Below, in pieces: positions 4,514 to 22,494 of a DNA stretch of 24,367 nucleotides. The stretch covers positions 1-24,367 of IMG/VR virus record IMGVR_UViG_3300043466_002514; one strand, 5' to 3'. The notes beneath the pieces were generated by a model. The model was given only the letters and a program-made list of their open reading frames with translations, was not told the DNA's origin and did not search any database. The translations under genes and the position numbers were made by a program. Position 1 is the stretch's first letter. Each line of letters starts with the position of its first letter. This DNA comes from a virus.

Positions 4514-6904
4514 CTATGCTGTTAAGTCTCCGAAAGCTACCCAAGTATTTTCTGCACGTTTTACAAGCGTTACTGCAGACCATTGAGCTCTTAGCTTTAA
4601 TCCTGGTGTTCCGTTAATTGTGACTCCACCAGTAGGAGCTATTGTTGTTTGTCCTGATCCTGTTTGGACTACGCTTATTTTTGTACCGATTGCATATGGA
4701 ACTGATGAGTTTAGTGGAACTGTTAAATTATTTGCAGATCCAACTCCCATTTCAATCATCTTATCTTTATCAGCTGCTACCAACGTGTATGATGCTGACT
4801 GTGCATTAATAAGTGTGGTTGATGGTGCAAATTCGATTGCATTTGTTCCATCTCCTACGATAATCTTATCATTTGTTGCATCAAAGGCTATTCTTCCACT
4901 TGTAGTAGATGTTGTTGATGATAGTGTAAGTGTCGGTGTTGTGATTGTTGGGGTTGTTAATGTCTTATTTGTTAATGTTTGTGATGTAGAAAGATCTGCT
5001 GTGATTGCAGTATCAATTGTAAGAGTTCCTGGTGTTGCTTCTGATAAACCATTTCCAGCAACAACAGTCTTAGCAGCATTAAACTCTGTATAAGAAATGT
5101 TATCTGTTCCAATTACTATTGGGTTTGTTGCTGAGTTATTGATAAATCCAATTCCACCGAATGTTGTTCCACTTTGAACAAATGTGAAATCTCCAGTTTT
5201 CATTTCTCCAACAGGACTGTTATCTGAATCTGTTGCACGAGTTAATACCCATGGGACAGATACTGATCCAACTGTTGTTAATGTATAAATACCGTTTTGT
5301 TTTGCGTCAGTCTGGTTCTTAATAAGAACTCTTTGTCCAAGAGTAACTGACTCTCCATCAATTGTGGTAAATGCACGGTTTGTATCTGCTGTAAGAGTTG
5401 CTCCTACTCCAGATGTACCGTTTGAGTAATTGGCTGCAAGATTTACTGTTGTTGTTGCGTGAACTGCTTCATGGAAGTTAATTCCAGCAGTTACGTTATC
5501 AACATATAGTTTAGTTGCTGCATGAAGGTCTGATGTTGGTGCACCTGAAAGTGTAAGTAGTCCAGTTAATGTTCCACCAGATAATGCTAACTTACCATCA
5601 AGTTGAGTTTGAATTGCAGATGTAACTCCATTTACATATCCTAACTCTGTTGCTGAAACATCTCCAACTGATGTTGTTGAAGGAAGAACTACTGTTCCAG
5701 TAAATGTTGGTCCAGCAAGATCTGCTTTTAGGTTGAGTGCTGTTTGTGTAGCAGTAGAAACTGGCTTGGCTGCATCTGATGTATTGTCTACATCGCTAAG
5801 TCCTACGTGAGTTTTTGTTATTCCAGTTACCGTTCCAGTAAAGGCTGGTGAATTAATTGGTGCATATGTTGTAGCTGCTGTTCCTGAGTTAAGCTTGTCA
5901 TTAATCTGTGTCTGAATAGCAGATGTTACGCCATCAAGGTATCCAATTTCAGTATCTGTAATATTATTAACACGAGCCTGAATTGTGGTGGTGTCTACAG
6001 AGATTGCTCCAGTTGTATCATTATATGAAAGTCCAGTGCCTAATGCATTTCCAACAGCATCTTGGGCTCTTTCATCTGTAAAATATTTATTGGTGCCACC
6101 TTCTGAAAGGTTGTCAGTATTAGAATCTGCAACACCATTTTCAGCAGTAATAGTAAGTCCATTTTTATCACCAGTGATAGCAATATTAGTTTTTGTTGCA
6201 TTTGTAAGAAGCTCGGCTACATTTTGTCTAGTTGCTAGTTCAGTAGTATCTACTATTCCATGAATATTTGTTGTAGCTGAGGTGTGACTTGTAAGATCTC
6301 CAGCCATAGCTACTGTGCCAGTTGCATCTGGAAAAGTAATTGTTCTATCTGCTGTAGGATCTGTTACGGTGAGGGTAGTTTCAAAATCATTTGCTGTAGT
6401 ACCTTCAAAAACAATTCCTGTTGTAGCATTAATAGTTGTGCTGTTAATAGTAGTGGTTGTACCGCTTACAGTTAAGTTTCCTGAGACTGTAACGTTTCCG
6501 CTACCGTCGGCTAATACAACAGTACCAGTTGCATCTGGAAGAGTGATTGTTCTGTCAGCAGTTGGATTTGTTACAGCCAATGTAGTTTCATTAGCATCTG
6601 CAGAAGAGCCTTCAAAAACAACACCAGTTGTGGTTAATACGTTGGCATTTGCATCAAGTGCTGCAACACCATTTAAAACACCTTTTTCTGTTGATAGAAC
6701 AAAACCCTCAAGGCTTCCACCAATAGCATCTTCATCAAGGAAGTAGTTAAGGTCAGCCCAGTGGTTTGTACCGTCTCCAACTTTAAACTTGTTAGTATCG
6801 GTCTCATATCCAATTTCTCCAGCATTAAGGATAGGTCCCTCTCCAGCATTGGTAGAGATCCATTGGGCAGCGGTACCTCTACGCTGTTGCATTCTTGTTG
6901 CCAT
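4514..6904 (-). CDS. Large modular tail-fibre/adhesin protein
   Basis: A 796-residue, Thr/Ala/Asn-rich beta-structured protein without Cys-rich or enzyme motifs. Residues about 1-60 (MATRMQQRRGTAAQW, then AGEIGYETDTNKFKVGDG) match the short N-terminal module common at the head of phage fibres and tropism determinants, which attaches to the virion. Then come two copies of an 'FEG..A.(D/N)ETTL.VT(D/N)PTADRTIT.PDATGTV' cassette, a 'LSYNDTTGAISVDTT..QARV' cassette, several 'T..GYV(N/D)GVTSAIQTQ' repeats, a 'HAATKLYVD' segment, and a C-terminal beta domain after about residue 700 (ASYTLVAADKDKMIEM). The start has a strong AGGAG ribosome site and its own promoter. It is last in the fibre block before a terminator. 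Role as receptor-binding fibre is inferred from family resemblance. Confidence 0.8.
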   Translation of the reverse strand: MATRMQQRRGTAAQWISTNAGEGPILNAGEIGYETDTNKFKVGDGTNHWADLNYFLDEDAIGGSLEGFVLSTEKGVLNGVAALDANANVLTTTGVVFEGSSADANETTLAVTNPTADRTITLPDATGTVVLADGSGNVTVSGNLTVSGTTTTINSTTINATTGIVFEGTTANDFETTLTVTDPTADRTITFPDATGTVAMAGDLTSHTSATTNIHGIVDTTELATRQNVAELLTNATKTNIAITGDKNGLTITAENGVADSNTDNLSEGGTNKYFTDERAQDAVGNALGTGLSYNDTTGAISVDTTTIQARVNNITDTEIGYLDGVTSAIQTQINDKLNSGTAATTYAPINSPAFTGTVTGITKTHVGLSDVDNTSDAAKPVSTATQTALNLKADLAGPTFTGTVVLPSTTSVGDVSATELGYVNGVTSAIQTQLDGKLALSGGTLTGLLTLSGAPTSDLHAATKLYVDNVTAGINFHEAVHATTTVNLAANYSNGTSGVGATLTADTNRAFTTIDGESVTLGQRVLIKNQTDAKQNGIYTLTTVGSVSVPWVLTRATDSDNSPVGEMKTGDFTFVQSGTTFGGIGFINNSATNPIVIGTDNISYTEFNAAKTVVAGNGLSEATPGTLTIDTAITADLSTSQTLTNKTLTTPTITTPTLTLSSTTSTTSGRIAFDATNDKIIVGDGTNAIEFAPSTTLINAQSASYTLVAADKDKMIEMGVGSANNLTVPLNSSVPYAIGTKISVVQTGSGQTTIAPTGGVTINGTPGLKLRAQWSAVTLVKRAENTWVAFGDLTA
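6308..6631 (-). repeat. Two copies of the ~115-bp fibre cassette
   Basis: Two related in-frame copies at about 6308-6420 and 6510-6631, encoding FEG...ETTL.VT.PTADRTIT.PDATGTV. Two further copies occur in the neighbouring 586-residue gene. Shared spellings such as 'ccagttgcatctgg' show DNA-level as well as protein-level similarity. Confidence 0.75.
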
Positions 6905-11014: not shown

Positions 11015-11054
11015 AAAATACCCCCTTAGCTTTATGCTTTGGGGGTATTTTTTA
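11015..11054. terminator. Bidirectional terminator between endolysin and the SDR gene
   Basis: AAAATACCCCC pairs with GGGGGTATTTT across a 15-base loop, flanked by A- and T-rich tracts on both sides. It therefore ends the endolysin transcript on the plus strand and the oxygenase operon on the minus strand, whose last stop codon is at 11052. Confidence 0.85.
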
Positions 11055-11720
11055 TCTAAATACAGGATTATTAATATGACTAATGTTAAGGCTATTTACG
11101 TTGAAGTGGCTAGGCAGAGAAGAAATCCAAAGTATAGACTCTGCAAGATTTTCTGCTGTCAGAGCATTGTCCTTTTTTTCTTTTTGGGTATCAATTGTTC
11201 CTGGACAAATTTCAGTTATTTTAATGTTGTGGGCTGGAAACTCTAGTCTCATAGTTTCTATAAGACCTATCTGACCTCTTTTGGCATTTGTATAATTTCC
11301 TCCCCCATGGTAAGGAACATTTCCTCCAATAGAAGTTACAAAAACAATTGTAGGAGATTTTGATTTTTCTAAACAGGGAATAAAAAGTTGAGAAAGATAC
11401 ATTGGTCCAGATACGTTTATGTCATATGCTTTTCTAAAGTTATCCATTGTTTCATTAGTAATATAGTCAGGACCTGATCCGCCGCCTGCATTATTTACCA
11501 GAAGATCTAAAGATATATCCTTATATTTGTTAAAAAATTCTTTTATTTCTTGTTCATTAGTAATGTCTAGACGATATGTCTCAACCAGCTCAGAGCGTAG
11601 CTCATTTACCTTTGAGAGGTCTCTAGACACTGCTATAACACGATATCCATTCTCAGACAACAGTTTAACTGTTGCATAGCCTACACCCCTGCTAGCCCCT
11701 GTAACTATTGCTGTCTTCAT
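11052..11720 (-). CDS. Short-chain dehydrogenase/reductase
   Basis: A 222-residue classical SDR with a Rossmann fold. It has the nucleotide-binding TGASRGVG at 7-14, NNAGG at 76-80, catalytic Ser130, and the YxxxK pair Tyr143/Lys147 in NYTNAKRG. The post-Rossmann CPGTIDT segment (172-178) is also present. All catalytic residues are intact, so it should be an active NAD(P)-dependent oxidoreductase; the substrate cannot be told. A Ser-Arg pair after beta2 (SRDLSK) hints at NADP. The gene abuts the stop of the upstream oxygenase with no gap, so it belongs to the same operon and is its last member. It may act on a small molecule or sugar used by the decoration pathway, which is inference. Confidence 0.85.
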   Translation of the reverse strand: MKTAIVTGASRGVGYATVKLLSENGYRVIAVSRDLSKVNELRSELVETYRLDITNEQEIKEFFNKYKDISLDLLVNNAGGGSGPDYITNETMDNFRKAYDINVSGPMYLSQLFIPCLEKSKSPTIVFVTSIGGNVPYHGGGNYTNAKRGQIGLIETMRLEFPAHNIKITEICPGTIDTQKEKKDNALTAENLAESILWISSLPSHFNVNSLNISHINNPVFR

Positions 11721-12455
11721 TTACATACCCTGAGATCTATTGAGATCCATTTCGTTATGAATCCAATGTGCAGGAACCATATATTTAAAACCAGATTTAA
11801 CAAGGTGTGCTGTGTGAAAATATGGCGGGAATGCTGGAAAGATAATAACACTATTTGCTTTTGGCTTTAGTCCAAAATCAATTGCCTTATTTGCTACAGA
11901 TATATCATAGTCTAAATCTACTGCTGGTGCCGACCCTTTAGAAAAGCCATCAGAACTTGTCCATCCACCATCATAATCTTTTAATTGAAAAGATATTTCT
12001 CCACCTTCACAGTCGTCATTTAAGTACATAACTAAGGAATATCTTAAAGTTTTATCTCCATCCAGTTGGTCAAAGTGTGCCCCCATACCTATTCCAGTGT
12101 TATATTTTTTTATATTAAACGTTGGAAAAATTCTTGGCTCATCAAAATCTCCAGTAGATGTAGCATAATCTTTACAAACATTATATAGAGTAGCCATTAT
12201 TGAGTCATATATATACTTGCTTTTTTCTCCTACTTCACCACCAATATTATTTATTGCATTAATATCAAACGTTTTTGTTTCTCCATAAATAAAATCTTTA
12301 TCATTTGATGCTGTCCAAGTATTCCAAACATTCACGCCAGATTCATTATTTGACCCAATAGAGTCTAGCTCTTTTAGTGTTTTCTGAAACTTGTCAAAAT
12401 TATCTATCGCATCAGTGTAATAGTAAACCTTTGGGTCTAATACCTCTTTATTCAT
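11721..12455 (-). CDS. 2OG-Fe(II) oxygenase, prolyl-4-hydroxylase-like (copy 6)
   Basis: A 244-residue member of the P4H-like branch of 2-oxoglutarate/Fe(II) dioxygenases, which hydroxylate substrates using O2 and 2-oxoglutarate. The facial triad is His127-x-Asp129 (GAHFDQL) and distal His214 (YFHTAH). Lys224, ten residues later in SGFKY, is placed to bind the 2OG carboxylate, as in collagen prolyl hydroxylases. The conserved core strand SLVMYLNDDCEGGEISF is present. It has an insertion of about 30 residues (YDGGWTSSDGFSKG...) after that core not found in its siblings, perhaps altering substrate choice. It has the best ribosome site of the cluster, AGGAGG, in an 11-base gap after the preceding gene. 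Target unknown. Confidence 0.87.
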   Translation of the reverse strand: MNKEVLDPKVYYYTDAIDNFDKFQKTLKELDSIGSNNESGVNVWNTWTASNDKDFIYGETKTFDINAINNIGGEVGEKSKYIYDSIMATLYNVCKDYATSTGDFDEPRIFPTFNIKKYNTGIGMGAHFDQLDGDKTLRYSLVMYLNDDCEGGEISFQLKDYDGGWTSSDGFSKGSAPAVDLDYDISVANKAIDFGLKPKANSVIIFPAFPPYFHTAHLVKSGFKYMVPAHWIHNEMDLNRSQGM

Positions 12456-12466
12456 TTAATTTCCTC

Positions 12467-13132
12467 CTAGTACCTATTCTTTTTGTAGTGATCTTTTTCT
12501 TTAATAAATCCGACCAAAACATATCTTATTGGACCTTGTCCTACATGCTTAACTCCATGCTTATATTCTTCATCACCTGGAAAAAATACCAAAGTTCCTG
12601 CTTTAGGCTTTAGCTGTATATCTAGATTTGGAAAAAAAAGTTCACCATCTGCGTAATCATCATTTAAATATAAAATTGTAGCATATCTGATAGATGGGTC
12701 TGTATGCTGATCAGTATGAGCTTTTAGCTCTACACCCTCTTGCATTCTTTGTATTGTTGCAAATCCACTTAGGTGAAGTTCTGAATCTGAATCTATTACC
12801 ATAGAGTTTAAAGCATTATACAGTACTTTGGTTATAGGCTGTTTAAGTATATTAAAATTTTTATCTTTCCAATTTTGAGTAATTTCAAATTTTCCTTCAG
12901 CAACTAAATTATCTACATCAGATCTTCCAAACTTCTCTATACAAAATTTTGACAAGTTGGCATAATATTCTACTTCCCAATCTTCTTGCGATGTGCTATT
13001 TATAATATCAAAAAAAATGTTTAACTGCTCTTTTGATAAAAAGTTTTCAATAGAGAGTAGCTTTGGAGTAATCTCTTCAAAAGAATACTCATTATCAACT
13101 AGTTGTTTCTTAAAAGATTCAAGCATTCTCAT
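12467..13132 (-). CDS. 2OG-Fe(II) oxygenase, prolyl-4-hydroxylase-like (copy 5)
   Basis: A 221-residue P4H-like dioxygenase. The N-terminal 100 residues are divergent, then come His139-Thr-Asp141 (KAHTDQH), the core 'ATILYLNDDYADGELFF', KPKAGTLVFFPGD, and distal His192 with Arg203 as the 2OG-binding residue (11 rather than 10 residues apart because of one extra residue in GQGPIRY). The triad is complete, so catalytic activity is expected. Its start overlaps the end of the upstream oxygenase by 14 bases, indicating coupled translation. A second in-frame ATG two codons in is equally possible as the start. A polar KKNRY tail ends the protein. Confidence 0.87.
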   Translation of the reverse strand: MRMLESFKKQLVDNEYSFEEITPKLLSIENFLSKEQLNIFFDIINSTSQEDWEVEYYANLSKFCIEKFGRSDVDNLVAEGKFEITQNWKDKNFNILKQPITKVLYNALNSMVIDSDSELHLSGFATIQRMQEGVELKAHTDQHTDPSIRYATILYLNDDYADGELFFPNLDIQLKPKAGTLVFFPGDEEYKHGVKHVGQGPIRYVLVGFIKEKDHYKKNRY

Positions 13133-13874
13133 TATCTTCTATCTTGTATTTATTTCCATTTGAATCTATTTTCCAACCCTGCTTAAGTAATTCCTGCCAC
13201 TCGGCTCTTTCAACCTCTTGCTTTGCTCTTGTTTCTTTCATCTCTGCTGCCCACTCATCTCTCAATTCTTGTGGGTATGCGTCTTCTTCACGGTCATCCC
13301 AAAATGATCCAATGGTATATCTTACTCCACTTTCTATTAAAGATACTTCATGCATATTGTTAAATCCCCCGTCAAAAACAGCAAGCATTCCAACCTGTGG
13401 TTTAATTTCTATATTTTGATCTGGAAACTTTAATAGACCACCCTCAAAGTCATCATTTAGGTAAAGAAATCCAGCATACCTACTTCTTGTAAATGCTCCA
13501 GATTTTCCTTCAGCATCTGTATTGTCTGAGTGTATTCTTGCGTACGCTCCTGGCTCCCACTTTTGTGTGTGGTACCCAATTTTAGAAATTGTTTTTGGAT
13601 CAAGGTCGTGCACTGAAGCTATTGCTTCTGGCATTGTTTTTTCAATATCTGAAAAAATAGTGGGGGACAACCCAACATCAATTAATTCTTGATCATTATC
13701 TTGTGGCAATATAGAAGAATATGACTCATAAAAAGAAATTGGCATCCAAGAAATTGCTCCATTGTTTGCTTGAGCATCCAAAGCCTGAATCATTTTTTCA
13801 CAATCTTCTTTAGAAATAAAGTTCTCATAAACAACAATATCTTTTGTTAATCTTTTTTTATTAGTTAGGTTCAT
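13119..13874 (-). CDS. 2OG-Fe(II) oxygenase, prolyl-4-hydroxylase-like, with charged C-terminal tail (copy 4)
   Basis: A 251-residue P4H-like dioxygenase. An N-terminal 'IVVYENFISKEDCEKMIQAL' helix is typical of the family. The triad is His115-Ser-Asp117 and His175, with Arg185 ten residues later (ESGVRY). The core strand reads AGFLYLNDDFEGG. After the catalytic domain (about residue 195) there is a highly charged helical extension rich in Glu, Lys and Arg, then KIDSNGNKYKIEDNENA, absent from the siblings and possibly a docking element. It begins within an ATGA overlap with the upstream gene. The residue after the Fe ligand is Ser rather than Ala or Thr, within normal variation. Confidence 0.88.
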   Translation of the reverse strand: MNLTNKKRLTKDIVVYENFISKEDCEKMIQALDAQANNGAISWMPISFYESYSSILPQDNDQELIDVGLSPTIFSDIEKTMPEAIASVHDLDPKTISKIGYHTQKWEPGAYARIHSDNTDAEGKSGAFTRSRYAGFLYLNDDFEGGLLKFPDQNIEIKPQVGMLAVFDGGFNNMHEVSLIESGVRYTIGSFWDDREEDAYPQELRDEWAAEMKETRAKQEVERAEWQELLKQGWKIDSNGNKYKIEDNENA

Positions 13875-14542
13875 GGTTTTCTATCTCCAGTATGTTTTGT
13901 AATTTCCCAGAAAAATGGACAAGTAAATCTTAAGCCACTTTTAATTTCAGTAACTCCGTGAATATAATTTTTGTCTCCTGGGAAAAAGTAAGCAGCACCT
14001 CTTTTAGGTTTAAATTGTACGCCCTGTAGAGGAAAATATAATTCTCCACCTTCATAGTCTTCATTTAAATAAAATAAACTTGAAAGATCATAATTTGGAA
14101 AGTCATTTGGCAAGCCAGCATCTGGACCATCATGAAGTTCTTTATCTGCATGTGGTTTTTGAAATTGTCCTGGAAGCCATTTAACAATAGTTGTTCCTGT
14201 TGGAGTAACCTCTACTTTATAAAATTCTTCAATTATTGGCTTTAGTCTTTGGAATAGTCCAGCAATTATTGGGGATATAGCTGGATCATTTTTATCTAAT
14301 GTTGGCTGAGTAGCAACTCTATCTTTCCAATAATCTGAATCATAGACGACAGTTCCATTTTCATTTACATGGCTTTGTGTTATATCCCAAATAGTTAAAG
14401 ACTTTGCAGCCTTTTCTAAAAAGTCCATTTCCTCTTGAGTCATAAAATTTTCTAACTCAACAATCATGTCTTTGCTGTCTCCAAACCACCCAGATGGGGT
14501 CATTGAAGGTTTTCTTGTTACAACATTTTTTAAATTATCCAT
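13871..14542 (-). CDS. 2OG-Fe(II) oxygenase, prolyl-4-hydroxylase-like (copy 3)
   Basis: A 223-residue P4H-like dioxygenase with His131-Ala-Asp133, distal His195 and Arg205 (KSGLRF). The core is SSLFYLNEDYEGGELYF followed by KPKRGAAYFFPGD. It has a loop after HAD (KELHDGPDAGLPNDFPN) that could shape the active-site entrance. Its ATG lies 6 bases after a TGGTATAAT box located in the last codons of the upstream DUF6065-like gene. This gene and those downstream may therefore be transcribed separately as a leaderless mRNA, besides any read-through from 17492. All residues needed for catalysis are present. Confidence 0.88.
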   Translation of the reverse strand: MDNLKNVVTRKPSMTPSGWFGDSKDMIVELENFMTQEEMDFLEKAAKSLTIWDITQSHVNENGTVVYDSDYWKDRVATQPTLDKNDPAISPIIAGLFQRLKPIIEEFYKVEVTPTGTTIVKWLPGQFQKPHADKELHDGPDAGLPNDFPNYDLSSLFYLNEDYEGGELYFPLQGVQFKPKRGAAYFFPGDKNYIHGVTEIKSGLRFTCPFFWEITKHTGDRKP

Positions 14543-14544
14543 AT

Positions 14545-15273
14545 TTAGATTATACCACCCAATCTGTTTTTAGTATTATCTTCTACCTTAAGCTTTAAAA
14601 CTTTTACTTCATGATTACCCAAAGATTCCCGTTTTTCATTTACTGCATCTCTATACCAGTCTGTCCATTCTCCAGAAGAATTTACAACCTGTGAGGCTGC
14701 TCCGTAAGAAATGTTTGCCTTTAACCTTTTTTTATCTTTATCTTCATAGTCAAAAATTTGAATACAAGAATTATTTAAGTTTGATAGGGATATTGGTATT
14801 ATAGTTGCAAGAGGTGTTCCTGCTTTAATGGAAATTATTTCATTTGATCTTTTTGCTTTTATTGATAATGGCAATGGATTATCATAAAAAGATGTACTCA
14901 TTAAACTTGAAATTGTTTCAAAATCATTACTAAAATAGTTTACTGGATTTATGGTAAAAAGACTAGCATCTTGCTCTGTTCTAAAGACTAGTCCAGTATG
15001 AAAGCTAATAGACGATTGCCCCCTACCCCCATAAGTACCTTCGGGTGCTTTTATTATTTTTATATGTTCTGGGGTTTGATCATTAATACCATCCCATATA
15101 AAATCAATATCTTCAACACAAGAAATACTCCACCCAATAACATTTGATTGTGTTACTGGAAAACATCTGTAGGCATGGCCTTCTGAAGTTTCATCCATCC
15201 AGTCTCTTTTTATAGACATTGGCTGAATGTTAAATGAACATCCCTGTGTTTTTTCAACTGAAATATTAAACAC
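14545..15273 (-). CDS. DUF6065-like protein
   Basis: A 242-residue beta-rich protein. The order of its motifs ('VIGWSISCVEDIDFIWDG', a Gly-rich loop GTYGGRGQSS, 'TGLVFRT', 'FTINPVNYF', and IKAGTPLATIIPISL) fits the family of unknown function DUF6065. It lacks any obvious catalytic metal triad. The start is GTG at 15273, sharing one base with the preceding stop (TAGTG), with AGAGG upstream; an ATG start would remove conserved sequence. It is sandwiched between oxygenase genes and its last codons contain the promoter of the next one. Its role is unknown; a substrate-binding or scaffold partner for the oxygenases is a guess from context. Confidence 0.68.
   Translation of the reverse strand: MFNISVEKTQGCSFNIQPMSIKRDWMDETSEGHAYRCFPVTQSNVIGWSISCVEDIDFIWDGINDQTPEHIKIIKAPEGTYGGRGQSSISFHTGLVFRTEQDASLFTINPVNYFSNDFETISSLMSTSFYDNPLPLSIKAKRSNEIISIKAGTPLATIIPISLSNLNNSCIQIFDYEDKDKKRLKANISYGAASQVVNSSGEWTDWYRDAVNEKRESLGNHEVKVLKLKVEDNTKNRLGGII
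14549..14557 (-). promoter_or_regulatory. Internal extended -10 promoter in the oxygenase operon, leaderless start at 14542
   Basis: TGGTATAAT, 6 bases before ATG 14542. It encodes the final Gly-Gly-Ile-Ile residues of the DUF6065-like protein. It would allow the last five genes to be expressed independently of the first four. Confidence 0.6.
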
Positions 15274-15929
15274 TAGTCGGCCTCTGCGCTATACATTTCT
15301 GGGGTATGAAATTTTTTACTGTAATCTAGCATAGTAACAATAGAGTACTTAGTTCCAGAAGTTACTGGCATAGCTTGGTGAGGATACATAAAGTTTGATG
15401 GAAAAATAAAAAGATCTCCAGCATCTGCTTTTACCTTTAAGTTTTGTAGTCTAAAATAAAGCTCTCCCCCTTCATAGTCATCATTTGGATAGGCAACTAG
15501 CGAAAGAGTACAGTTATATGAAAATCCATGATCATGATGTTCCATAAAGTGTTGCCCTGGACCATACTTTATAAAGTTAAAGGCTTCCCAGTATTTTAAA
15601 TTGTTGATATTGTACATTCCTGAATAGTCTTGAACTGCAGGAAGCTTAACGTCATATAGGTCCTGCCACAAAGACTGTAGGTTTAGACTGGTTGGGCTCT
15701 TATCATGCTCTATATCTGTTTTTTTAAATTTAAAGTCATTGCAATCACGGTATGCTGGCATTAATTCTTTATATCCAACATATGCTGGTTGCCAAGCATA
15801 TCCTGAAGGATCTCCTACTGGCTTAAGATTAGATTCAATTCTATTAATTACATCTATCTCTTTTTTTATTAGTCCCTTATAGACCCAGATACCATTGCCA
15901 AGATCTTTTTTTTCTGTCCACGTTTGCAT
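15273..15929 (-). CDS. 2OG-Fe(II) oxygenase, prolyl-4-hydroxylase-like (copy 2)
   Basis: A 218-residue P4H-like dioxygenase, closest to the first copy at 16706-17419. Both share an N-terminal 'G(I/L).VY' entry, 'EAFNF(I/V)KY', and the 'DHG..YNCT(L/V)S' strand after the metal motif. The triad is His131-His-Asp133 and His184, with Lys194 ten residues on (TSGTKYS). Lys rather than Arg at this position is characteristic of prolyl-4-hydroxylases. The GGELYF core is intact. A good AGGAG ribosome site lies in the 9-base gap after the preceding gene. The pair of Lys-type enzymes at the head of the operon may share one substrate class. Confidence 0.88.
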   Translation of the reverse strand: MQTWTEKKDLGNGIWVYKGLIKKEIDVINRIESNLKPVGDPSGYAWQPAYVGYKELMPAYRDCNDFKFKKTDIEHDKSPTSLNLQSLWQDLYDVKLPAVQDYSGMYNINNLKYWEAFNFIKYGPGQHFMEHHDHGFSYNCTLSLVAYPNDDYEGGELYFRLQNLKVKADAGDLFIFPSNFMYPHQAMPVTSGTKYSIVTMLDYSKKFHTPEMYSAEAD

Positions 15930-15938
15930 TTATATCTC

Positions 15939-16706
15939 CTATTTATATTCTCTTCTTGTCCAAACACTGTTCTTATATACTCCGCCGTCTGGCTTACGAT
16001 AAAACTGCATGTTATTAACCATTTTATCATAGATTGTAGATTGATCCAAAATCTCTATTTTATGTTCCCAGTTATCTCTTTTAAATGGGAAAATCTGTAG
16101 ATATGGAGTTCCTGCTGGAATTGTTCCTTCCCACCCATCTATAATAAAAAATGGAAAACTTCCAAGTAAATTAACTTTATCAGAATCTACTATTCCAGTT
16201 GTACATAAAAATGGAAGATCAAACCTATTCATTGGTGTCATAAATAAAGCACTGTATCCTTCTGGCAATTCTAATCCCCAATCAGCAGACCAGGCAAAAT
16301 GATGCTCATAATATCCAACTGGGTGCTCAAACTGTGGCATGGGAGTTCTTTGTGTGCAAAAATCTTTACACAAAGGATCATCAATTTTTACGTTAATTAT
16401 TCCTTCAGAATTTTTAGTAAAAGTTAAATCACATGGAGTTTTAAAAACATAACCTGTTGAAAATGCATCCATAATTGCTGGGCAAGCTTTCCATGTAGGA
16501 ATCTTTCCATAGTCGTCGGTTGTACCTTCTTTAGGAAATGGACAAACTCCTTGTGGTGCTTTGTAATATTCTCCGTTTGGCATTTTTGCAAATCTGTCTG
16601 CACTTTTATACCAATCAGGAATAACGCTTTGTGTTGGAGATGGAGTAGACTTGCTATTTACTTTTAGCCAAGGTCTTAAAGATTTAAATGTAGCAACCAG
16701 TGACAT
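15939..16706 (-). CDS. DUF6065-related beta-rich protein of the oxygenase operon
   Basis: A 255-residue protein I do not recognise with certainty. It opens with 'SVIPDWYKSADRF', has many aromatics and Cys (CPFPKEG, PLCKDFCTQ), and shows the same series of motifs as the 242-residue gene two positions downstream: 'FSTGYVFKTPCDLTF', a Pro/Asn-containing 'MTPMNRFDLPF' and 'IPAGTPYLQIFPF'. The 'AGTP...IFP' element matches AGTPLATIIP, so the two are probably distant relatives. Its ATG shares one base with the preceding stop (TAATG). It always sits with oxygenase genes here, so it may present or bind their substrate; that is inference. Confidence 0.6.
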   Translation of the reverse strand: MSLVATFKSLRPWLKVNSKSTPSPTQSVIPDWYKSADRFAKMPNGEYYKAPQGVCPFPKEGTTDDYGKIPTWKACPAIMDAFSTGYVFKTPCDLTFTKNSEGIINVKIDDPLCKDFCTQRTPMPQFEHPVGYYEHHFAWSADWGLELPEGYSALFMTPMNRFDLPFLCTTGIVDSDKVNLLGSFPFFIIDGWEGTIPAGTPYLQIFPFKRDNWEHKIEILDQSTIYDKMVNNMQFYRKPDGGVYKNSVWTRREYK

Positions 16707-17419
16707 TACTTATGTCCTAGTTTGTTTATGTCTGTCATTACGACAACACAATACTTTGTTCCTGACTCCATTGGAAGTGATGCATGCTCATAGATATAAT
16801 TTGACGGGAATACAGCTATATCTCCTACTTTTGGTTTAATGACAATGTTGTCTAGTCTTGGGAAATGTATATCCCCACCTTCATAATCATCATTAATATA
16901 TATTACAGCGGAGACTGTACAGTTATAAGCAGGTCCGTGATCTGCATGAATATTAAAATGTGTTCCTTTGCCTTCATACTTTACAAAGTTAAATGCTTCG
17001 TAATAGACTACATCAATTCCCCAATATCTTGCATAATCATCAATGCAATATTTAAGTTTTTGATATATCTCTTCATGCAGGTCTATTAGTTCTGCATTTG
17101 ACTCATCTCTTAGCCCAAGATTTTCTTGCTTATACTTAAAATCTACACAATCTCTTGCCTTTTTAATTGGAATAGGAGAGTTTGTAACTGTAGCGTCAGA
17201 CCAATTATACTTTCCGCCTTTACTCAAGTTTGATTCAAGGGTATTTATATATCTATTTGCATCATCTAAAGAAAAGGTGTTGTGGTAAACATGCAAACCT
17301 AGTCCAAGGTTTTCAGCAACAATGCCATTGTCTAACTGCTTTGGCAAAACTCTATTTGACGCTGTTTCTGATCTATCTTTTGTGAACCACTCATTTGAGT
17401 TTTCATCATAAATATCCAT
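16706..17419 (-). CDS. 2OG-Fe(II) oxygenase, prolyl-4-hydroxylase-like (copy 1)
   Basis: A 237-residue P4H-like dioxygenase and the first gene of the nine-gene operon. The triad is His158-Ala-Asp160 in NIHADHG and distal His212 (YIYEHAS); Lys222 (SGTKY) is set for 2OG binding, as in collagen prolyl-4-hydroxylases. The core 'AVIYINDDYEGGDIHFP' and 'KPKVGDIAVFPSN' are intact. The first 45 residues (Asn/Glu/Ser-rich) are an extension compared with copy 2. Its transcript likely starts at an extended -10 at 17492-17500 with a leader of about 65 bases and a GGTGG ribosome site before ATG 17419. The gene lies directly downstream of the Hint/proline-rich and collagen-like genes. Confidence 0.88.
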   Translation of the reverse strand: MDIYDENSNEWFTKDRSETASNRVLPKQLDNGIVAENLGLGLHVYHNTFSLDDANRYINTLESNLSKGGKYNWSDATVTNSPIPIKKARDCVDFKYKQENLGLRDESNAELIDLHEEIYQKLKYCIDDYARYWGIDVVYYEAFNFVKYEGKGTHFNIHADHGPAYNCTVSAVIYINDDYEGGDIHFPRLDNIVIKPKVGDIAVFPSNYIYEHASLPMESGTKYCVVVMTDINKLGHK

Positions 17420-17491
17420 ACACCACCATTTTCTAATAATAAATGCTTTAGCCCATTGCCTTGCATTTTAGCTATTTTTTGCTACAGAATC

Positions 17492-17500
17492 ATTATATCA
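17492..17500 (-). promoter_or_regulatory. Promoter of the oxygenase operon (TGATATAAT)
   Basis: Extended -10 TGATATAAT on the minus strand just after the Hint gene stop (17508), with a leader of about 65 bases before ATG 17419. I see no convincing -35. A short open frame begins in the leader at an ATG before CAAGGC, but it has no clear ribosome site. Confidence 0.5.
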
Positions 17501-17507
17501 GATAAGG

Positions 17508-18476
17508 TTACTTGTTGTGAACTAAGAATCCACCAGCAATAAACCAGTCATATGGTTCTACAGATATCGCATAGGTTGAGATTTCTTCGGCTTCTGTATA
17601 TCCTATGTTAGCAACCAATTCTTCTGCTATTGATCCATCAGAAAGTATCTTGATTAGTGAATCCCCAACAATTATATCGTAAGAGTTTTTCATTTCAAAA
17701 ATTCCTTCTGTATTTTTAACAAACATTGGCTGATTAAGAGAGTAAGATACCTCTTCGTTATTATTAAAGTGGATTGTCTTATCCTTAAGAGAAACATAGA
17801 TGTTTGTAACTGTAGCTTCTACGTATCCTGCAGTTTTTGCTGTTAGTGAATCTGAGGTCCACATCATATATGTGTGCTCTTCGTCTGGACCCATTTCATT
17901 TAGGTCTATTGAGTAGACGGTATCTCCAACTTGAAGATCTTTAGCCTTAACCAAACCAGTTGTGGTTAGTATCTCAGTTTCTGCTTCAATACATCCAACA
18001 CCAAAGAAACGTGGGAAGTATGGGAAGAACGGTGGAAAGAACGGTGGGAAGAACGGTGGGAAGAATGGGAAAGATGGAGGGAAGAACGGTGGGAAGAATG
18101 GTGGGAAGAATGGGAAGAATGGAAAGAATGGGAAAAATGGAGGAAAGAATGGGGGGAAGAATGGTGGTGCTACTGGTGTAACAGAATTTGATGCAGCTGA
18201 TGGATCTGATACGAGTGTTCCATTATTTAGTGTCACTGTAAAGGTATATGCGGTTCCATTTGTTAAACCAGAAACAGTAATTGGAGATGTTCCAGTTCCT
18301 GTGATGTTTCCTGGGCTAGATGTTGCGGTATAAGTCAGTGCTCCAGTTCCCTTACCAGTAAATGCTGGGGCAGTGAATGCTACTGTGGCAGTTGCGTTTC
18401 CTGCTGTTGCTGATCCAATAGTTGGGGTACCTGGCTTACGGCCATCTTGGGAGTCTGTTATACCTATGTTTTCCAT
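17508..18476 (-). CDS. Fn3 - Pro/Phe tract - Hint domain protein
   Basis: A 322-residue three-part protein. Residues about 15-101 form a fibronectin type III-like beta domain (GTPTIGSATAGNATATVAF... LTNGTAYTFTVT). Residues 104-158 are a 55-residue tract of 24 Pro and 28 Phe with only one Ser, one Tyr and one Arg, built of PPFF and PFF units. Residues 161-322 are a Hint (hedgehog/intein) domain: Cys162 as the first-residue nucleophile in GCIEAETEIL, the LQVGDTVYSID strand, the 'IIVGDSLIKI' turn, and a terminal 'DWFIAGGFLVHNK' with the His-Asn pair at 320-321. The block-B His is not obvious (SLNQPMFV has Gln). Only Lys follows Asn, so full splicing cannot occur, but N-terminal thioester cleavage could. 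It is leaderless and lies between the collagen-like gene and the oxygenase operon. Confidence 0.83.
   Translation of the reverse strand: MENIGITDSQDGRKPGTPTIGSATAGNATATVAFTAPAFTGKGTGALTYTATSSPGNITGTGTSPITVSGLTNGTAYTFTVTLNNGTLVSDPSAASNSVTPVAPPFFPPFFPPFFPFFPFFPFFPPFFPPFFPPSFPFFPPFFPPFFPPFFPYFPRFFGVGCIEAETEILTTTGLVKAKDLQVGDTVYSIDLNEMGPDEEHTYMMWTSDSLTAKTAGYVEATVTNIYVSLKDKTIHFNNNEEVSYSLNQPMFVKNTEGIFEMKNSYDIIVGDSLIKILSDGSIAEELVANIGYTEAEEISTYAISVEPYDWFIAGGFLVHNK
18001..18168 (-). repeat. Low-complexity DNA encoding the Pro/Phe tract
   Basis: On the plus strand the region is a tandem array of GGGAAGAA(C/T)GGT-like 9- and 12-base units, with in-frame variation (gggaagaatggg, ggaaagaatggg). All unit lengths are multiples of three, so expansions keep the reading frame. 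Confidence 0.85.
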
Positions 18477-18482
18477 ATTTGA

Positions 18483-18491
18483 ATTATATCA
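18483..18491 (-). promoter_or_regulatory. Extended -10 promoter, leaderless start of the Hint gene
   Basis: TGATATAAT on the minus strand, 6 bases before ATG 18476, in the gap after the collagen-like gene. Confidence 0.62.
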
Positions 18492-18520
18492 CAATATAAA
18501 CTCTATTTTGAGAAAGATCC

Positions 18521-19246
18521 TCAAGAAATTGAGATATACATTCCCTTTAAGATAATAGTACTTTCGCTATCCGTTCTTGCTTGAATAATTCCGCCCTCTG
18601 ACTTGATTTTTGAAATATCGACATATAGGGTTTGGCTAATAGACATTTCATAAGGATACTTATATTTCAACATACCAATATATCCAGTTGGTGACTCTAC
18701 TTTTGGAATGTATGTTCTTATCCATGCCTCTGTGCTGTTGGTTTCTGTGGTAAGTAATATGTCATACCTAATATCTACTTTGGCACCGACCTTTAGCTGT
18801 TTAAAATTAACTCTTTGTGTAGCAGAATTCCAAAGAGATACTGAACCTAAAGGTAAAAATCTTAAAATACTATTATCTGTATCTTCTTGTATTAATAAAT
18901 TTACCCAGCCGTCATCACCCTTATCTGGTCCCAAAAATATTGGTCTTTTATCTGTATTTTCATAATAAGCCCAGCCTGGGTATTGACCTGATGGACTTTC
19001 ATACCCTTCCCCACCGCCTCTGCCAGGATCTCCTTTGGGTCCTTGTGGGCCTTGTTTTCCATCTTTACCTGGTATGCCTCTTTCACCCCTTGGACCTTCT
19101 GGGCCTGGGGGACCAGCAGGACCTATGTCTCCTTTTTCCCCTTGCATTCCTGGAACAGGAATATACTCTGCATTGTTTGTTGATCCTTGAGTTGCCTGAA
19201 CTGTTTCAGAATACTTTTTCTTTGGAAAGTCCATGCTTTTTGCCAT
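18521..19246 (-). CDS. Collagen-like fibre protein
   Basis: A 241-residue protein. Residues 1-32 are an N-terminal anchor (AKSMDFPKKKYSE...). Residues 33-80 hold 16 uninterrupted Gly-X-Y triplets, including GPP, GIP and GDP with Pro in the Y position and six triplets with Pro in X. Residues about 85-241 form a beta-rich globular domain with Trp/Tyr residues (GWAYYENTDKRPIF, GDDGWVNLL). Short collagen triple helices serve as rigid trimeric stalks in phage fibres. Y-position prolines are the classic target of collagen prolyl-4-hydroxylases, and six enzymes of that family are encoded 1.1 kb downstream. ATG 19246 follows the 27-residue gene by 3 bases and shares its transcript. Confidence 0.87.
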   Translation of the reverse strand: MAKSMDFPKKKYSETVQATQGSTNNAEYIPVPGMQGEKGDIGPAGPPGPEGPRGERGIPGKDGKQGPQGPKGDPGRGGGEGYESPSGQYPGWAYYENTDKRPIFLGPDKGDDGWVNLLIQEDTDNSILRFLPLGSVSLWNSATQRVNFKQLKVGAKVDIRYDILLTTETNSTEAWIRTYIPKVESPTGYIGMLKYKYPYEMSISQTLYVDISKIKSEGGIIQARTDSESTIILKGMYISIS

Positions 19247-19249
19247 GAA

Positions 19250-19333
19250 CTATTTGACCTTAAATGTTGTTTTACCAATTTTTATAATAGGTGGCAAATT
19301 AACTTTTGGAGTAGATATTTTTACCACAGGCAT
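19250..19333 (-). CDS. 27-residue peptide between the 133-residue and collagen-like genes
   Basis: Encodes MPVVKISTPKVNLPPIIKIG followed by seven more residues. Its ATG shares one base with the preceding stop (TAATG) and its stop lies 3 bases before the collagen-like start, so it fits tightly into the operon. It is basic, with a Lys/Pro/Ile/Val pattern. It occupies the same place after its neighbour as the 75-residue gene does after the paralogous 140-residue gene. Coupling and position are the evidence; the function is unknown. Confidence 0.5.
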   Translation of the reverse strand: MPVVKISTPKVNLPPIIKIGKTTFKVK

Positions 19334-19734
19334 TAAAGACTCGTTCCACTAACATCACCCAGTACACAAATAGTTCCAATAACGGGAGTCCAGGTTGTGT
19401 CTTCTCCTTCTCCAGAACCAGCTGCAATAATAACTTCTAAATCAAAAGAAAGTTCTGCAACTACAGACTTATAAGATGTGCCCCAGTTAGCAGTAGTTGA
19501 GGCTGGAGCTTGAATTTCTGCATACCCAGCACCAGAAATAACTGGCAAATCGTCAAGGACTTGTCCATTTGGATCATAGGATGTGGCAACATAAGACCAG
19601 TCGCTTGTATCGTATGCAGTTACTTCGTCATCTTCAAAAAACTCAATTTTAAGGTTTGAGCTATCTCCACGAACAACCGTCCACTGAATATTTGCGGGGG
19701 TAGCTCCAAATTTTTCTATTGTAGGTGAACACAT
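19333..19734 (-). CDS. Beta-sandwich virion protein (paralogue of 9887-10309)
   Basis: A 133-residue protein with 'ANIQWTVVRGDSSNLKIEFFEDD', 'SDWSYVATSYDPNG' and a terminal 'WTPVIGTICVLGDVSG', matching the order and signature residues of the 140-residue protein at 9887-10309. The two start separate fibre gene sets: this one leads to the 27-residue peptide and the collagen-like fibre. A role as the virion-proximal connector of the collagen-like fibre is plausible by analogy with BppU-type domains, but is inference. The start is 6 bases after TGATATAAT, so the mRNA is leaderless. Confidence 0.68.
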   Translation of the reverse strand: MCSPTIEKFGATPANIQWTVVRGDSSNLKIEFFEDDEVTAYDTSDWSYVATSYDPNGQVLDDLPVISGAGYAEIQAPASTTANWGTSYKSVVAELSFDLEVIIAAGSGEGEDTTWTPVIGTICVLGDVSGTSL

Positions 19735-19740
19735 ATAGTG

Positions 19741-19749
19741 ATTATATCA
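19741..19749 (-). promoter_or_regulatory. Extended -10 promoter, leaderless start at 19734
   Basis: TGATATAAT on the minus strand, 6 bases before the ATG. It directly follows the terminator of the glycosyltransferase gene. Confidence 0.62.
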
Positions 19750-19750
19750 T

Positions 19751-19812
19751 AATAAAAAGCGTTAGCCCCTAGGAAGCAATGGGTGGGGTGGGGTAGCAAC
19801 CTAGGGACTAAC
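19751..19812 (-). terminator. Terminator with G-rich loop after the glycosyltransferase gene
   Basis: GTTAGcCCCTAGG (19761-19773) pairs with CCTAGGGaCTAAC (19800-19812) through 12 of 13 positions around a 26-base loop. On the minus strand the stem is followed by GCTTTTTATT. The loop on the plus strand contains GGGTGGGGTGGGG, three G-runs that could form a G-quadruplex on the non-template side. The loop is unusually large for an intrinsic terminator. Confidence 0.6.
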
Positions 19813-19852
19813 TCCTACATTGTAACATTATATTATCCATCATTTCATTAAT

Positions 19853-20527
19853 CTATATAGTCCAACCTTTTTCTTTGGCTATATCAGAATACAATACCGT
19901 TTGACCGTTATAGTCTATACAATAACTTTTGTTAAACGTTGACTGATAGTCTCTTGAATGAGAAAAATATTTATATTGAAAGAAAATGTCGTTTTTATTT
20001 TTCATAGCTGTATTAGAGAAATTAGTCAAAACAATTGCTCCAGGATTTACGAATACGTCAAAATTTTTACTTTCTATTATTTTTTTACACTCTTCTATTG
20101 ATTTATCTATTATTGTTTTAACTATTTTGCTATTTTTAACAGCAGCAAAATTAGAGTTGTTTATAAGCTGTGGACCTCTTTGAAATCCAGGAGGGGAGCA
20201 GATCATATCTTGGTTATTATAGTTTTGAACAATAACATCATCTAAAGACATTGTGCAAACGGAGTCCATATCTGCATAAAATCCACCATTCTTATACAAA
20301 GCTACAAGTCTCCATAAATCTGCTTGATTTATTCCAGAGCATAACTTATAACATTCGTATAAGAAATCATCATACTCTTGGATATCCCTTAATCTTTCTT
20401 CAGCAGAAACATAATTATATTTCCAGCCAGGGTTTAAATTTTTCCATGTATTTATTACATTTTTTTGAAATGGTAAAAGATCTTCATATTTGTTTTCATG
20501 GGTTTGCCATATAATTTTTGGAATCAC
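19853..20527 (-). CDS. Glycosyltransferase, GT32 (DXD sugar-binding) type
   Basis: A 224-residue protein matching the Gly_transf_sug/GT32 family: N-terminal MIPKIIWQTHENK, a 'GINQADLWRLVALYKNGGFYADMDSV' block with the metal and nucleotide-sugar-binding Asp86-x-Asp88, and a C-terminal aromatic/charged tail. Such enzymes transfer hexose or related sugars from nucleotide sugars to protein or glycan acceptors. The start codon is GTG at 20527, chosen because it lies 6 bases after an extended -10 and directly begins the family's N-terminal motif. It is a single-gene transcript ended by the hairpin at 19751-19812. Its place next to the collagen-like, Hint and oxygenase genes suggests it may glycosylate virion proteins, perhaps on hydroxylated residues. 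Confidence 0.87.
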   Translation of the reverse strand: MIPKIIWQTHENKYEDLLPFQKNVINTWKNLNPGWKYNYVSAEERLRDIQEYDDFLYECYKLCSGINQADLWRLVALYKNGGFYADMDSVCTMSLDDVIVQNYNNQDMICSPPGFQRGPQLINNSNFAAVKNSKIVKTIIDKSIEECKKIIESKNFDVFVNPGAIVLTNFSNTAMKNKNDIFFQYKYFSHSRDYQSTFNKSYCIDYNGQTVLYSDIAKEKGWTI

Positions 20528-21667: not shown

Positions 21668-21832
21668 TTATTCTGGTTTGTGATCAGATTCTGATTTGCA
21701 AGTACATCCATTGCAGCATGTTTCTGTAAATATCTTCAAAGCCAGACCTGTATTGTCTACTGCCTTAATAGGTGTTGATTCATACTGAAATTCTACATCC
21801 CAGGCATTTTCAAAATTTTCTAATATCCCCAT
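21668..21832 (-). CDS. 54-residue protein with CCxxCTC motif
   Basis: Starts MGILENFENAWDVEFQY and ends with a cysteine cluster, Cys39-Cys40-Asn-Gly-Cys43-Thr-Cys45, followed by a polar tail (KSESDHKPE). The ATG lies inside the last codons of the sulfotransferase gene (13-base overlap), with GAAGG 6 bases upstream. The same CCxxCTC motif ends the 30-residue protein at 22592-22684. The cysteines probably bind metal or form disulfides; I do not recognise the family. Confidence 0.6.
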   Translation of the reverse strand: MGILENFENAWDVEFQYESTPIKAVDNTGLALKIFTETCCNGCTCKSESDHKPE

Positions 21833-22494
21833 CGTTGACCTTCTTTAGTGTTTGTGGATTTAATTAACATATACTCATTATAGCATTCTGCTAGGACCTC
21901 TAGCTCTAAACCTCTAATAAAGTTATCCACAAGGACTCTTTCTTTTATCTTCTCTCTAGGCATATGTCCATCATGATCTGTCATTAAGGATTCTTGTATT
22001 TTGTTGCCAGATTTATCTACCCTGATTTTTTTAGTTTCAAACATGATCCTTTCTATTTCTTTCAATACCTGGTCATTGGTCCAATCTTGTTTGTCTTTTA
22101 TCGTAATACCAAAGAATAGAGCAATGTCTTCTATTGTTCCCACAGGGTCTTTTAGCATATCTTCTGACTTGCCAGTATAGATGTTAGAAAAATGTAGCTT
22201 AGATTCTTTTATTACTTTTAAATAATCTTTTGCATAGGCCTCAATGGTGTATCGTATCTCATCAAGATCTTCTTCATTAAATGATAGTTCACAGTCAAAC
22301 CTTGACTTAACCACTGCAGAGGAGATTGAGTCATAGGGGTTTCTGAAGAATACCGCCTGCTTTTGAGATTTATCTGAATATTTTGTTATGTCTAGGGCTT
22401 TGCTTGCTTCACCATGAATAAGTAGACGAAATAGGCATGCAAAAAATACATTACCCGATCTTGGTGGAGAGTTAAATAGGAAGATTTCTTTCAT
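21820..22494 (-). CDS. Sulfotransferase-like protein
   Basis: A 224-residue protein with the two PAPS-binding signatures of sulfotransferases: the 5'-phosphosulfate loop PPRSGNVFF at residues 10-18 and the 3'-phosphate-binding FFRNPYDSISS at 49-59. A helical C-terminal region follows (MPREKIKERVLVDNFIRGLELEVLAECYNEYM). Such enzymes move sulfate from PAPS to hydroxyl or amino groups of sugars, tyrosines or small molecules; the acceptor is unknown. The ATG at 22494 lacks a ribosome site but overlaps the stop of a 7-codon leaderless ORF (ATGA), suggesting coupled translation. It may act with the glycosyltransferase at 19853 in decorating virion or host surface, an inference. The gene contains one TTATCCACA sequence (21923-21931), probably chance. 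Confidence 0.75.
   Translation of the reverse strand: MKEIFLFNSPPRSGNVFFACLFRLLIHGEASKALDITKYSDKSQKQAVFFRNPYDSISSAVVKSRFDCELSFNEEDLDEIRYTIEAYAKDYLKVIKESKLHFSNIYTGKSEDMLKDPVGTIEDIALFFGITIKDKQDWTNDQVLKEIERIMFETKKIRVDKSGNKIQESLMTDHDGHMPREKIKERVLVDNFIRGLELEVLAECYNEYMLIKSTNTKEGQRWGY

Follow-up and report, generated by a model that had tools for sequence, protein, structure and literature searches.

A phage cassette of prolyl 4-hydroxylase-like oxygenases linked to a phenylalanine/proline-tract protein, a putative virion stalk

Background

Few 'auxiliary metabolic' genes of aquatic phages are as common as those for 2-oxoglutarate (2OG)-Fe(II) oxygenases, whose role is usually guessed to lie in host metabolism. 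The subject here is a virus fragment from a lake-water phage, IMG/VR record IMGVR_UViG_3300043466_002514 (24,367 bases; the whole stretch is called the window), in which six such genes form a cassette with two DUF6065-type genes and a short-chain dehydrogenase (SDR) gene, downstream of a gene for a protein with a tract of Phe and Pro. The latter, the FN3-Phe/Pro-Hint gene, is named FFPP; the oxygenases are OX1 to OX6 in transcription order, the DUF6065-type proteins DUFa and DUFb, and a neighbouring collagen-like fibre COL. It is argued below that the cassette probably hydroxylates prolines of a dedicated putative virion stalk, the Phe/Pro tract of FFPP, with OX1 handling the single-Pro sites.

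Several described systems resemble this locus in part. The viral collagen prolyl hydroxylase vCPH of PBCV-1 (PDB 5c5t) is a single-domain enzyme with the prolyl 4-hydroxylase (P4H) fold and is a close structure match of OX2 (E 6.4e-10; Z 17.5). The systems differ in that PBCV-1 is a eukaryotic algal virus with another substrate, and we know of no Phe/Pro stalk devoted to vCPH and of no DUF6065 or SDR protein as its partner. The PBCV-1 P4H has been linked to hydroxyproline in viral proteins (Eriksson 1999, cited in PMC9301287).

The algal P4H of entry 3gze, OX2's best structure match, and the hydroxyproline-rich proteins of the cell wall offer another likeness, namely a repetitive Pro-rich rod as substrate. 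The substrate of the algal enzyme is Ser-Pro or poly-Pro with O-glycans; in contrast, the tract in the window is almost only Phe and Pro, and has no conserved GT32 partner. In mimivirus, L230 is a lysyl hydroxylase-glycosyltransferase with which the virus hydroxylates its own collagen-type, fibre-like protein, and the weak matches of the OX2 profile include a procollagen lysyl hydroxylase-glycosyltransferase, entry 6ax6. There the target is Lys in Gly-X-Y collagen and the glycosyltransferase is fused, whereas the tract in the window is without lysine.

The cyanophage S-SCSM1 has tandem 2OG oxygenase genes around its tail-fibre genes, and the proteins are distantly related to OX2 (34% identity); in contrast to the window, no FFPP tract or DUF6065 is annotated in the stretch read. 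Its short tail fibre (L233:6093-7358) contains a long Arg/Pro/Phe/Gln-rich insert (RQPRNYRQPR..., FRAPVPFRVP...) and is flanked by 2OG oxygenase genes, four in one group and three in the other. This growable phage is possibly a second, unrelated case of oxygenases beside a Pro-rich fibre tract. In the neighbourhoods of cyanophages S-T4 and ACG-2014f, no oxygenase-fibre cluster comparable to the S-SCSM1 one is annotated. Up to 24 2OG-Fe(II) oxygenase genes occur in one cyanophage genome, their function being 'not specifically investigated' (PMC9602691). DUF6065 / phrog_7084 proteins are found in the haloarchaeal tailed virus HF2, with DUFa homologues of 24-33% identity; the HF2 locus differs in that the DUFa homologue (L232:7857-8741) lies near ribonucleotide reductase (RNR) and tail genes and has no annotated oxygenase in its neighbourhood. 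Records of haloarchaeal tailed viruses that contain DUFa homologues number 49 (phrog_7084).

The principle of a viral P4H, of hydroxylated viral collagen (PBCV-1, mimivirus) and of peptidyl-prolyl hydroxylation of a repetitive rod is already known. No description was found of a Phe/Pro substrate dedicated to such enzymes, of a cassette that joins several paralogues to a protein with a dUTPase-type fold, or of a repeat type that matches the set of enzymes.

Results

Layout of the cassette

The genes of the module lie on the minus strand, from the FFPP gene down to the SDR gene:

18483..18488 (-), TATAAT hexamer 6 nt ahead of the FFPP start codon; candidate promoter for leaderless transcription from FFPP to SDR
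17508..18476 (-), FFPP gene, putative stalk protein of 322 aa and proposed substrate: FN3 (aa 29-96), then the Phe/Pro tract (aa 104-156) and a Hint-like tip that runs from Cys162 to the terminal HNK
18009..18167 (-), Phe/Pro tract of 53 residues (aa 104-156), with 8 Pro-Pro and 5 single-Pro spacers
16706..17419 (-), OX1, P4H-like oxygenase, PF13640 42.5 bits; presence matches single-Pro spacers
15939..16706 (-), DUFa, DUF6065-like, predicted dUTPase-type beta-clip fold (AlphaFold model); phrog_7084 E 1.3e-31
15273..15929 (-), OX2, P4H-like oxygenase, PF13640 49.9 bits; model nearest algal P4H 3gze
14545..15273 (-), DUFb, DUF6065, PF19541 93 bits
13871..14542 (-), OX3, P4H-like oxygenase, PF13640 35.6 bits
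13119..13874 (-), OX4, P4H-like oxygenase, PF13640 34.4 bits
12467..13132 (-), OX5, P4H-like oxygenase, PF13640 49.5 bits
11721..12455 (-), OX6, P4H-like oxygenase, the most divergent, PF13640 32.4 bits
11052..11720 (-), SDR, short-chain dehydrogenase, PF00106 E 1.9e-41; usually ends the cassette, missing in some relatives

From OX1 to SDR the intergenic distances are -14 to +11 nt, and 88 nt separate the FFPP gene from OX1. An earlier note on this DNA had described a tight operon with two DUF6065-like proteins and an SDR, and this description holds: DUFb is a clear member of its family, DUFa is connected to it through phrog_7084 and hhalign, and the SDR matches PF00106.

Linkage of FFPP and the cassette

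Four observations carry the argument: the gene linkage, the intact catalytic residues, the prolyl-hydroxylase fold of the OX2 model, and the match between tract grammar and enzyme set. For the first, DUFa and OX2 searches of IMG/VR gathered many viral contigs with a constant gene order: tail-fibre genes, the Phe/Pro-tract gene, often a small Cys-rich open reading frame (ORF), OX1, DUFa, OX2, DUFb and OX3, then in some an extra oxygenase, OX4, OX5, OX6, often SDR, and finally RNR, a small gene and the portal gene. At least six oxygenases are the norm for this freshwater cassette. In 52 of 52 non-redundant loci that extend at least 2.6 kb upstream of OX1, and whose cassettes were found without reference to the tract, a sense-strand FFPP ORF lies within 3.5 kb upstream of OX1. 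A Gly-X-Y ORF was found in none of the 52, and a GT32 homologue in two, GT32 being the only glycosyltransferase family searched. Therefore, the tract protein is the fixed partner of the cassette. The proposal of the earlier note that the enzymes modify virion fibres stands in so far as they are prolyl-hydroxylase-like and tied to a Pro-rich putative virion protein; their partner is FFPP alone, not the collagen-like fibre or GT32, and neither the expected co-occurrence of Gly-X-Y fibres with the operon nor a glycosyltransferase of the GT32 family as part of the system was borne out among the relatives.

The reverse search used a DNA pattern that encodes PFFPPFFPPFFP and matched at least 120 stretches. 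PF13640 was present on 46 of the 50 FFPP contigs tested, mostly in several copies and often in 6-11. Among distinct FFPP ORFs found by the pattern, an oxygenase lies within 4 kb downstream in 40/49 and within 4 kb upstream in 3/30. A further set comprised 43 contigs matched by portal. The 33 of these that lack an oxygenase cluster are all without FFPP (one of them 94.5 kb long, and one with a single oxygenase gene). FFPP is present in six of the ten with at least two oxygenases, the other four apparently being truncated within the cassette.

The long FFPP pattern occurs at eight places in 84,980 bacterial and archaeal species genomes. Genuine-looking FFPP genes are those of L355, L357 and L360 (both in one metagenome-assembled genome) and L361, all on phage-like contigs; OX2/OX3-type genes follow in L355, L357 and L361, and the contig of L360 ends at the tract. 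The matches L354, L356, L358 and L359, judged to be stray or out-of-frame ORFs and lacking cassette genes, were discounted.

The window and its relative G056 differ in layout: the entire block is found on the opposite side of the SLT gene, and RNR directly follows the fibre gene. The block therefore occurs as a unit at two genome positions. No near DNA match of the window was found in cultured phages, and tblastn of DUFb and the FFPP protein against 50,697 phage records gave no match, although low-complexity filtering may mask tract matches; therefore, no cultured phage with the module was found.

Catalytic residues and fold of the oxygenases

All six ORFs pass the PF13640 (2OG-FeII_Oxy_3) cut-off of 27 bits, with 32.4-49.9 bits, and the record has no further member of this family. 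The intact HxD...H triads and the Lys or Arg 10-11 residues after the distal His, described earlier, were confirmed in every one: H158/D160/H212/K222 in OX1, H131/D133/H184/K194 in OX2, H131/D133/H195/R205 in OX3, H115/D117/H175/R185 in OX4, H139/D141/H192/R203 in OX5 and H127/D129/H214/K224 in OX6. The last spacing is 10 residues, and 11 in OX5. With 70-89 orthologues per oxygenase, every orthologue that covers the sites has the same four residues (OX1 80/80, OX2 84/84, OX3 88/88, OX4 86/86, OX5 73/73, OX6 70/70). OX1 and OX2 are 40% identical and the other pairs 21-35% (over the longer aligned stretches); therefore, the paralogues are old and do not reflect a recent tandem expansion.

In the profile search with the OX2 family, bacterial P4H structures rank first (E 4.8e-8), followed by lysyl hydroxylase LH3 and PiuC-type entries. 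The model of OX2 (predicted local distance difference test, pLDDT, 92.4) is nearest to the algal P4H with (Ser-Pro)5, 3gze (Z 20.3; 173 residues, root-mean-square deviation 2.0, 19% identity). Other close structures are the hypoxia-inducible factor (HIF) prolyl hydroxylases, the Pseudomonas P4H with EF-Tu and PBCV-1 vCPH, and nearly all of the best 50 matches are prolyl hydroxylases. A double-stranded beta-helix fold nearest to prolyl hydroxylases was found for the one model made, that of OX2. On this model the cassette enzymes look like peptidyl-prolyl hydroxylases, a shared fold being no proof of substrate.

The PHROG profiles 'ferrochelatase' (phrog_3531) and 'DNA endonuclease' (phrog_2297, phrog_274) match these P4H-like oxygenases (window 11721-17419), and cyanophage records label such genes 'ferrochelatase'. 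Both names are likely misannotations.

Tract grammar and OX1

Among the relatives, the tract is 15-180 residues long (median 63) and almost pure Phe and Pro (~51% Phe, 43% Pro), with its prolines standing in pairs (FFPPFF) or alone (FFPFF). A reduced cassette is common, with OX2-, OX3- and DUFb-type genes, the most widely shared members, and without OX1. Grammar was counted in 199 distinct tract proteins whose loci extend 3 kb or more downstream and include a cassette gene. Single-Pro spacers are present in 165/165 tract proteins with OX1 (1438 single, 1627 double spacers) vs 0/34 without it (0 single, 402 double), a table that ignores kinship and whose p-value is not to be taken at face value. 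Part of these totals comes from two later scans, run once the rule had been noticed, in which single-Pro spacers occur in 46/46 tracts with OX1 and 0/10 without.

On an OX2 tree of 51 tips, OX1 and single-Pro spacers are concordant in 51/51, and each trait needs four changes, always paired. For example, the OX2 of L327 groups with those of reduced cassettes, yet both OX1 and single-Pro spacers are present, whereas the OX2 of L317, L311 and L353 groups with those of full cassettes, yet both are absent; the placements of L327 and L353, on long branches, are unsure. G101 and G102, with a divergent OX1, have 1 and 2 single-Pro spacers and are exceptions in appearance only. L244, L328, L336 and L381 were rejected as exceptions, OX1 being found elsewhere on their contigs. 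The earlier suggestion that different copies serve different targets thereby gains a first piece of evidence: as judged from sequence, OX1 tracks the single-Pro spacers.

The FFPP protein

The tract in the window measures 53 residues rather than the 55 first reported. Its Pro codons are varied (17 CCA, 4 CCG, 2 CCT, 1 CCC); therefore, it is no simple DNA repeat. The FN3 match is weak (PF00041, E 4.8e-4, below the cut-off), as is the Hint match (PF14890, 20.9 bits against a cut-off of 35.8, E 3.4e-4; PF13403, 12.7 against 28.4 bits). By eye, the Hint hallmarks are present, Cys162 as the block-A Cys and the His-Asn of the terminal VHNK, so that the description of a Pro/Phe-Hint protein is right as to these residues; the profiles stay below their cut-offs, and a Hint-like tip is only occasional among the relatives.

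The anchor domain is swapped among relatives (FN3, PASTA, Ig-like) while tract and enzymes remain together. The tips vary: about 14/199 are Hint-like, 87/199 are Cys-rich, 78/199 have at most 25 residues, and others occur. They are hypervariable and often very Cys-rich (GGCGSACYFCAYDFGAGCGCQCAY), e.g. L136:6838-7776 and L010:4674-5627; they are candidate receptor-binding tips or disulfide-rich peptides. Some phages have two FFPP proteins. A search of open-licence papers for the letters of the tract found no paper.

DUFa and DUFb

DUFb is a clear member of PF19541 (93 bits, cut-off 26.6). DUFa has no Pfam match; it is a distant homologue of DUFb (hhalign 99.1%), and 7 of the 26 rows of its alignment pass PF19541. 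Its AlphaFold model (pLDDT 93.4) has dUTPases and dCTP deaminases as the best Foldseek and VIA rows and a beta-clip fold, with moderate scores (Z up to 10.3 over 117 residues). Going by the model, DUFa has a dUTPase / dCTP deaminase-type fold. A motif-3-like G-[IV]-[IV]-D-x-D is kept, by eye, in most DUFa rows and lost in DUFb, and there is no dUTPase Pfam match. A search of open-licence papers for DUF6065 found no paper.

Discussion

Proposed mechanism

The block 18476-11052 may be read as a dedicated protein-hydroxylation module. Transcription would begin at the TATAAT that precedes the FFPP start codon by six bases and run on to SDR. FFPP, encoded with the tail-fibre genes, would be a stalk-like protein with a variable anchor, the Phe/Pro tract and a variable tip, and the P4H-like oxygenases would hydroxylate the tract prolines. 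Enzymes of the OX2/OX3 type would suffice where tracts have Pro-Pro spacers only, and OX1 would be required for tracts that also bear single-Pro spacers. Hydroxylation may make the polyproline-II helix stiffer and bring a very hydrophobic rod into solution; such a rod could keep the tip away from the virion, by analogy with hydroxyproline in plant and algal cell-wall proteins. The hydroxylated product would be mounted on the virion near the tail fibres. DUFa and DUFb may be accessory, perhaps (as a guess) a peptide-binding scaffold for the substrate, and SDR is likewise possibly accessory, perhaps an enzyme acting on the hydroxylated product.

Several points weigh against this interpretation. 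Six or more enzymes for a two-residue repeat are unexplained, and some may act on the tips; the nucleotide-enzyme fold of DUFa is also left unexplained by a stalk. For nine of the 49 pattern-found FFPP ORFs, the next 4 kb downstream contain no oxygenase gene, and in the fragments L264, L307, L342 and L431 (7-38 kb) a single-Pro tract occurs on a contig without OX1. The pattern scans chose the tract types, though nothing in them chose OX1. The grammar match comprises only about four independent changes, and with three supported pairs the sign test gives p 0.25, so that significance is unreachable. Moreover, the hydroxylation itself, the virion location, the stalk role and its biophysics, and the roles of the DUF6065 and SDR proteins are what we infer from these observations.

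Alternative explanations

The oxygenases might act mainly on the variable tip or on other residues, like peptide-maturing enzymes, the tract being a mere co-travelling spacer. This agrees with the high variability of the tips and their frequent richness in Cys (87/199), with a faint match of OX4 to the peptide-maturing 2OG oxygenase YhhC (E 0.0021, far below the cut-off), and with enzymes outnumbering tract motifs. It is nevertheless unlikely, as 78/199 cassette-linked proteins are nearly tipless and OX1 is followed by tract grammar, not by tip type.

Hydroxylation of collagen-like and other tail fibres, with GT32 adding sugar, is very improbable. The collagen-like ORF does adjoin the FFPP gene in the window and G056, and viral P4Hs that act on Pro-rich or collagen-like proteins are known from PBCV-1 (cited in PMC9301287). 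However, the other cassettes have no Gly-X-Y ORF (0/52) and rarely GT32 (2/52), and COL has only three Y-position prolines.

No more can be said for auxiliary metabolic genes that serve host small molecules or nucleotides, again a very unlikely explanation. The dUTPase-type fold of DUFa and the RNR that follows the cassette in many relatives would point to nucleotide chemistry, and phage 2OG oxygenases have been described as host-reprogramming genes of untested function (PMC9602691). In contrast, the cassette of the window and G056 stands apart from RNR (before the SLT gene) and yet with FFPP, many RNR-bearing portal relatives have no cassette, and OX2 resembles peptidyl hydroxylases.

There is an equally slight chance that FFPP and the oxygenases are merely co-linked in one mobile host-range block with no enzyme-substrate relation. 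The finding of the block as a unit at two genome positions would fit, but linkage alone predicts neither the match of OX1 to single-Pro spacers nor the persistence of the tract through exchange of anchor and tip. Nucleotide modification, prompted by the fold of DUFa, is unsupported by gene order.

Neighbouring genes and possible host

Three further genes lie upstream of the FFPP gene:

18521..19246 (-), COL, collagen-like fibre, PF01391 (Collagen) E 2.7e-7; accessory, outside the conserved unit
19333..19734 (-), phrog_1084-like small protein, phrog_1084 E 0.01; a neighbour also kept in relative G056
19853..20527 (-), GT32-type glycosyltransferase, PF04488 54 bits; accessory, unconserved

COL is collagen-like as first described, with 14 strict Gly-X-Y triplets rather than 16, and its prolines are at X (six) more often than at Y (three). 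A collagen-like gene precedes the FFPP gene in the window and also in G056, and was seen only in these two; therefore, COL is an accessory of this subgroup. The GT32 gene near the cassette was correctly recognised, the PF04488 match being clear. That six oxygenases lie beside two proline-rich candidate substrates had seemed striking; the arrangement is real, and the impression is tempered by the clusters beside tail-fibre genes in cultured cyanophages and by the usual size of the cassette.

A sulfotransferase-like protein is encoded near the module (window 21820-22494; PF00685, 26.3 bits, cut-off 22). A large fibre protein (window 4514-6904) has the major tropism determinant N-terminal domain Mtd_N (PF18454, E 7.5e-15), and in most relatives its homologues stand immediately before the FFPP gene.

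TATAAT occurs exactly 6 nt ahead of the start codons of g9197, OX3, FFPP and g19333 (starts 9643, 14542, 18476 and 19734) and 9 nt ahead of that of g9887 (10309), against a chance expectation of ~0.5 sites in the 20-nt windows before 27 genes. This placement suggests leaderless transcripts, as in Actinobacteria. The portal is ~45% identical to that of Streptomyces phages, a sequence resemblance that suggests actinobacterial hosts.

Significance

With hydroxylation of the FFPP tract as the preferred explanation, one large oxygenase family gains a specific predicted substrate, encoded next door, and a motif-level prediction for one of its enzymes. The wider proposition is advanced more tentatively, as a possibility somewhat short of even: that phages build a virion stalk rich in hydroxyproline from a Phe/Pro repeat whose code matches the enzymes, that separate paralogues read Pro-Pro and single-Pro sites, that gain or loss of an enzyme is paired with gain or loss of a repeat type, and that the dUTPase-fold family DUF6065 has been recruited to protein modification. 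If true, these genes would shift from host metabolism to virion building, the DUF6065 proteins would acquire their first context, and the tract would be a repetitive protein material of a new kind, in which a code linking enzyme and repeat is built in.

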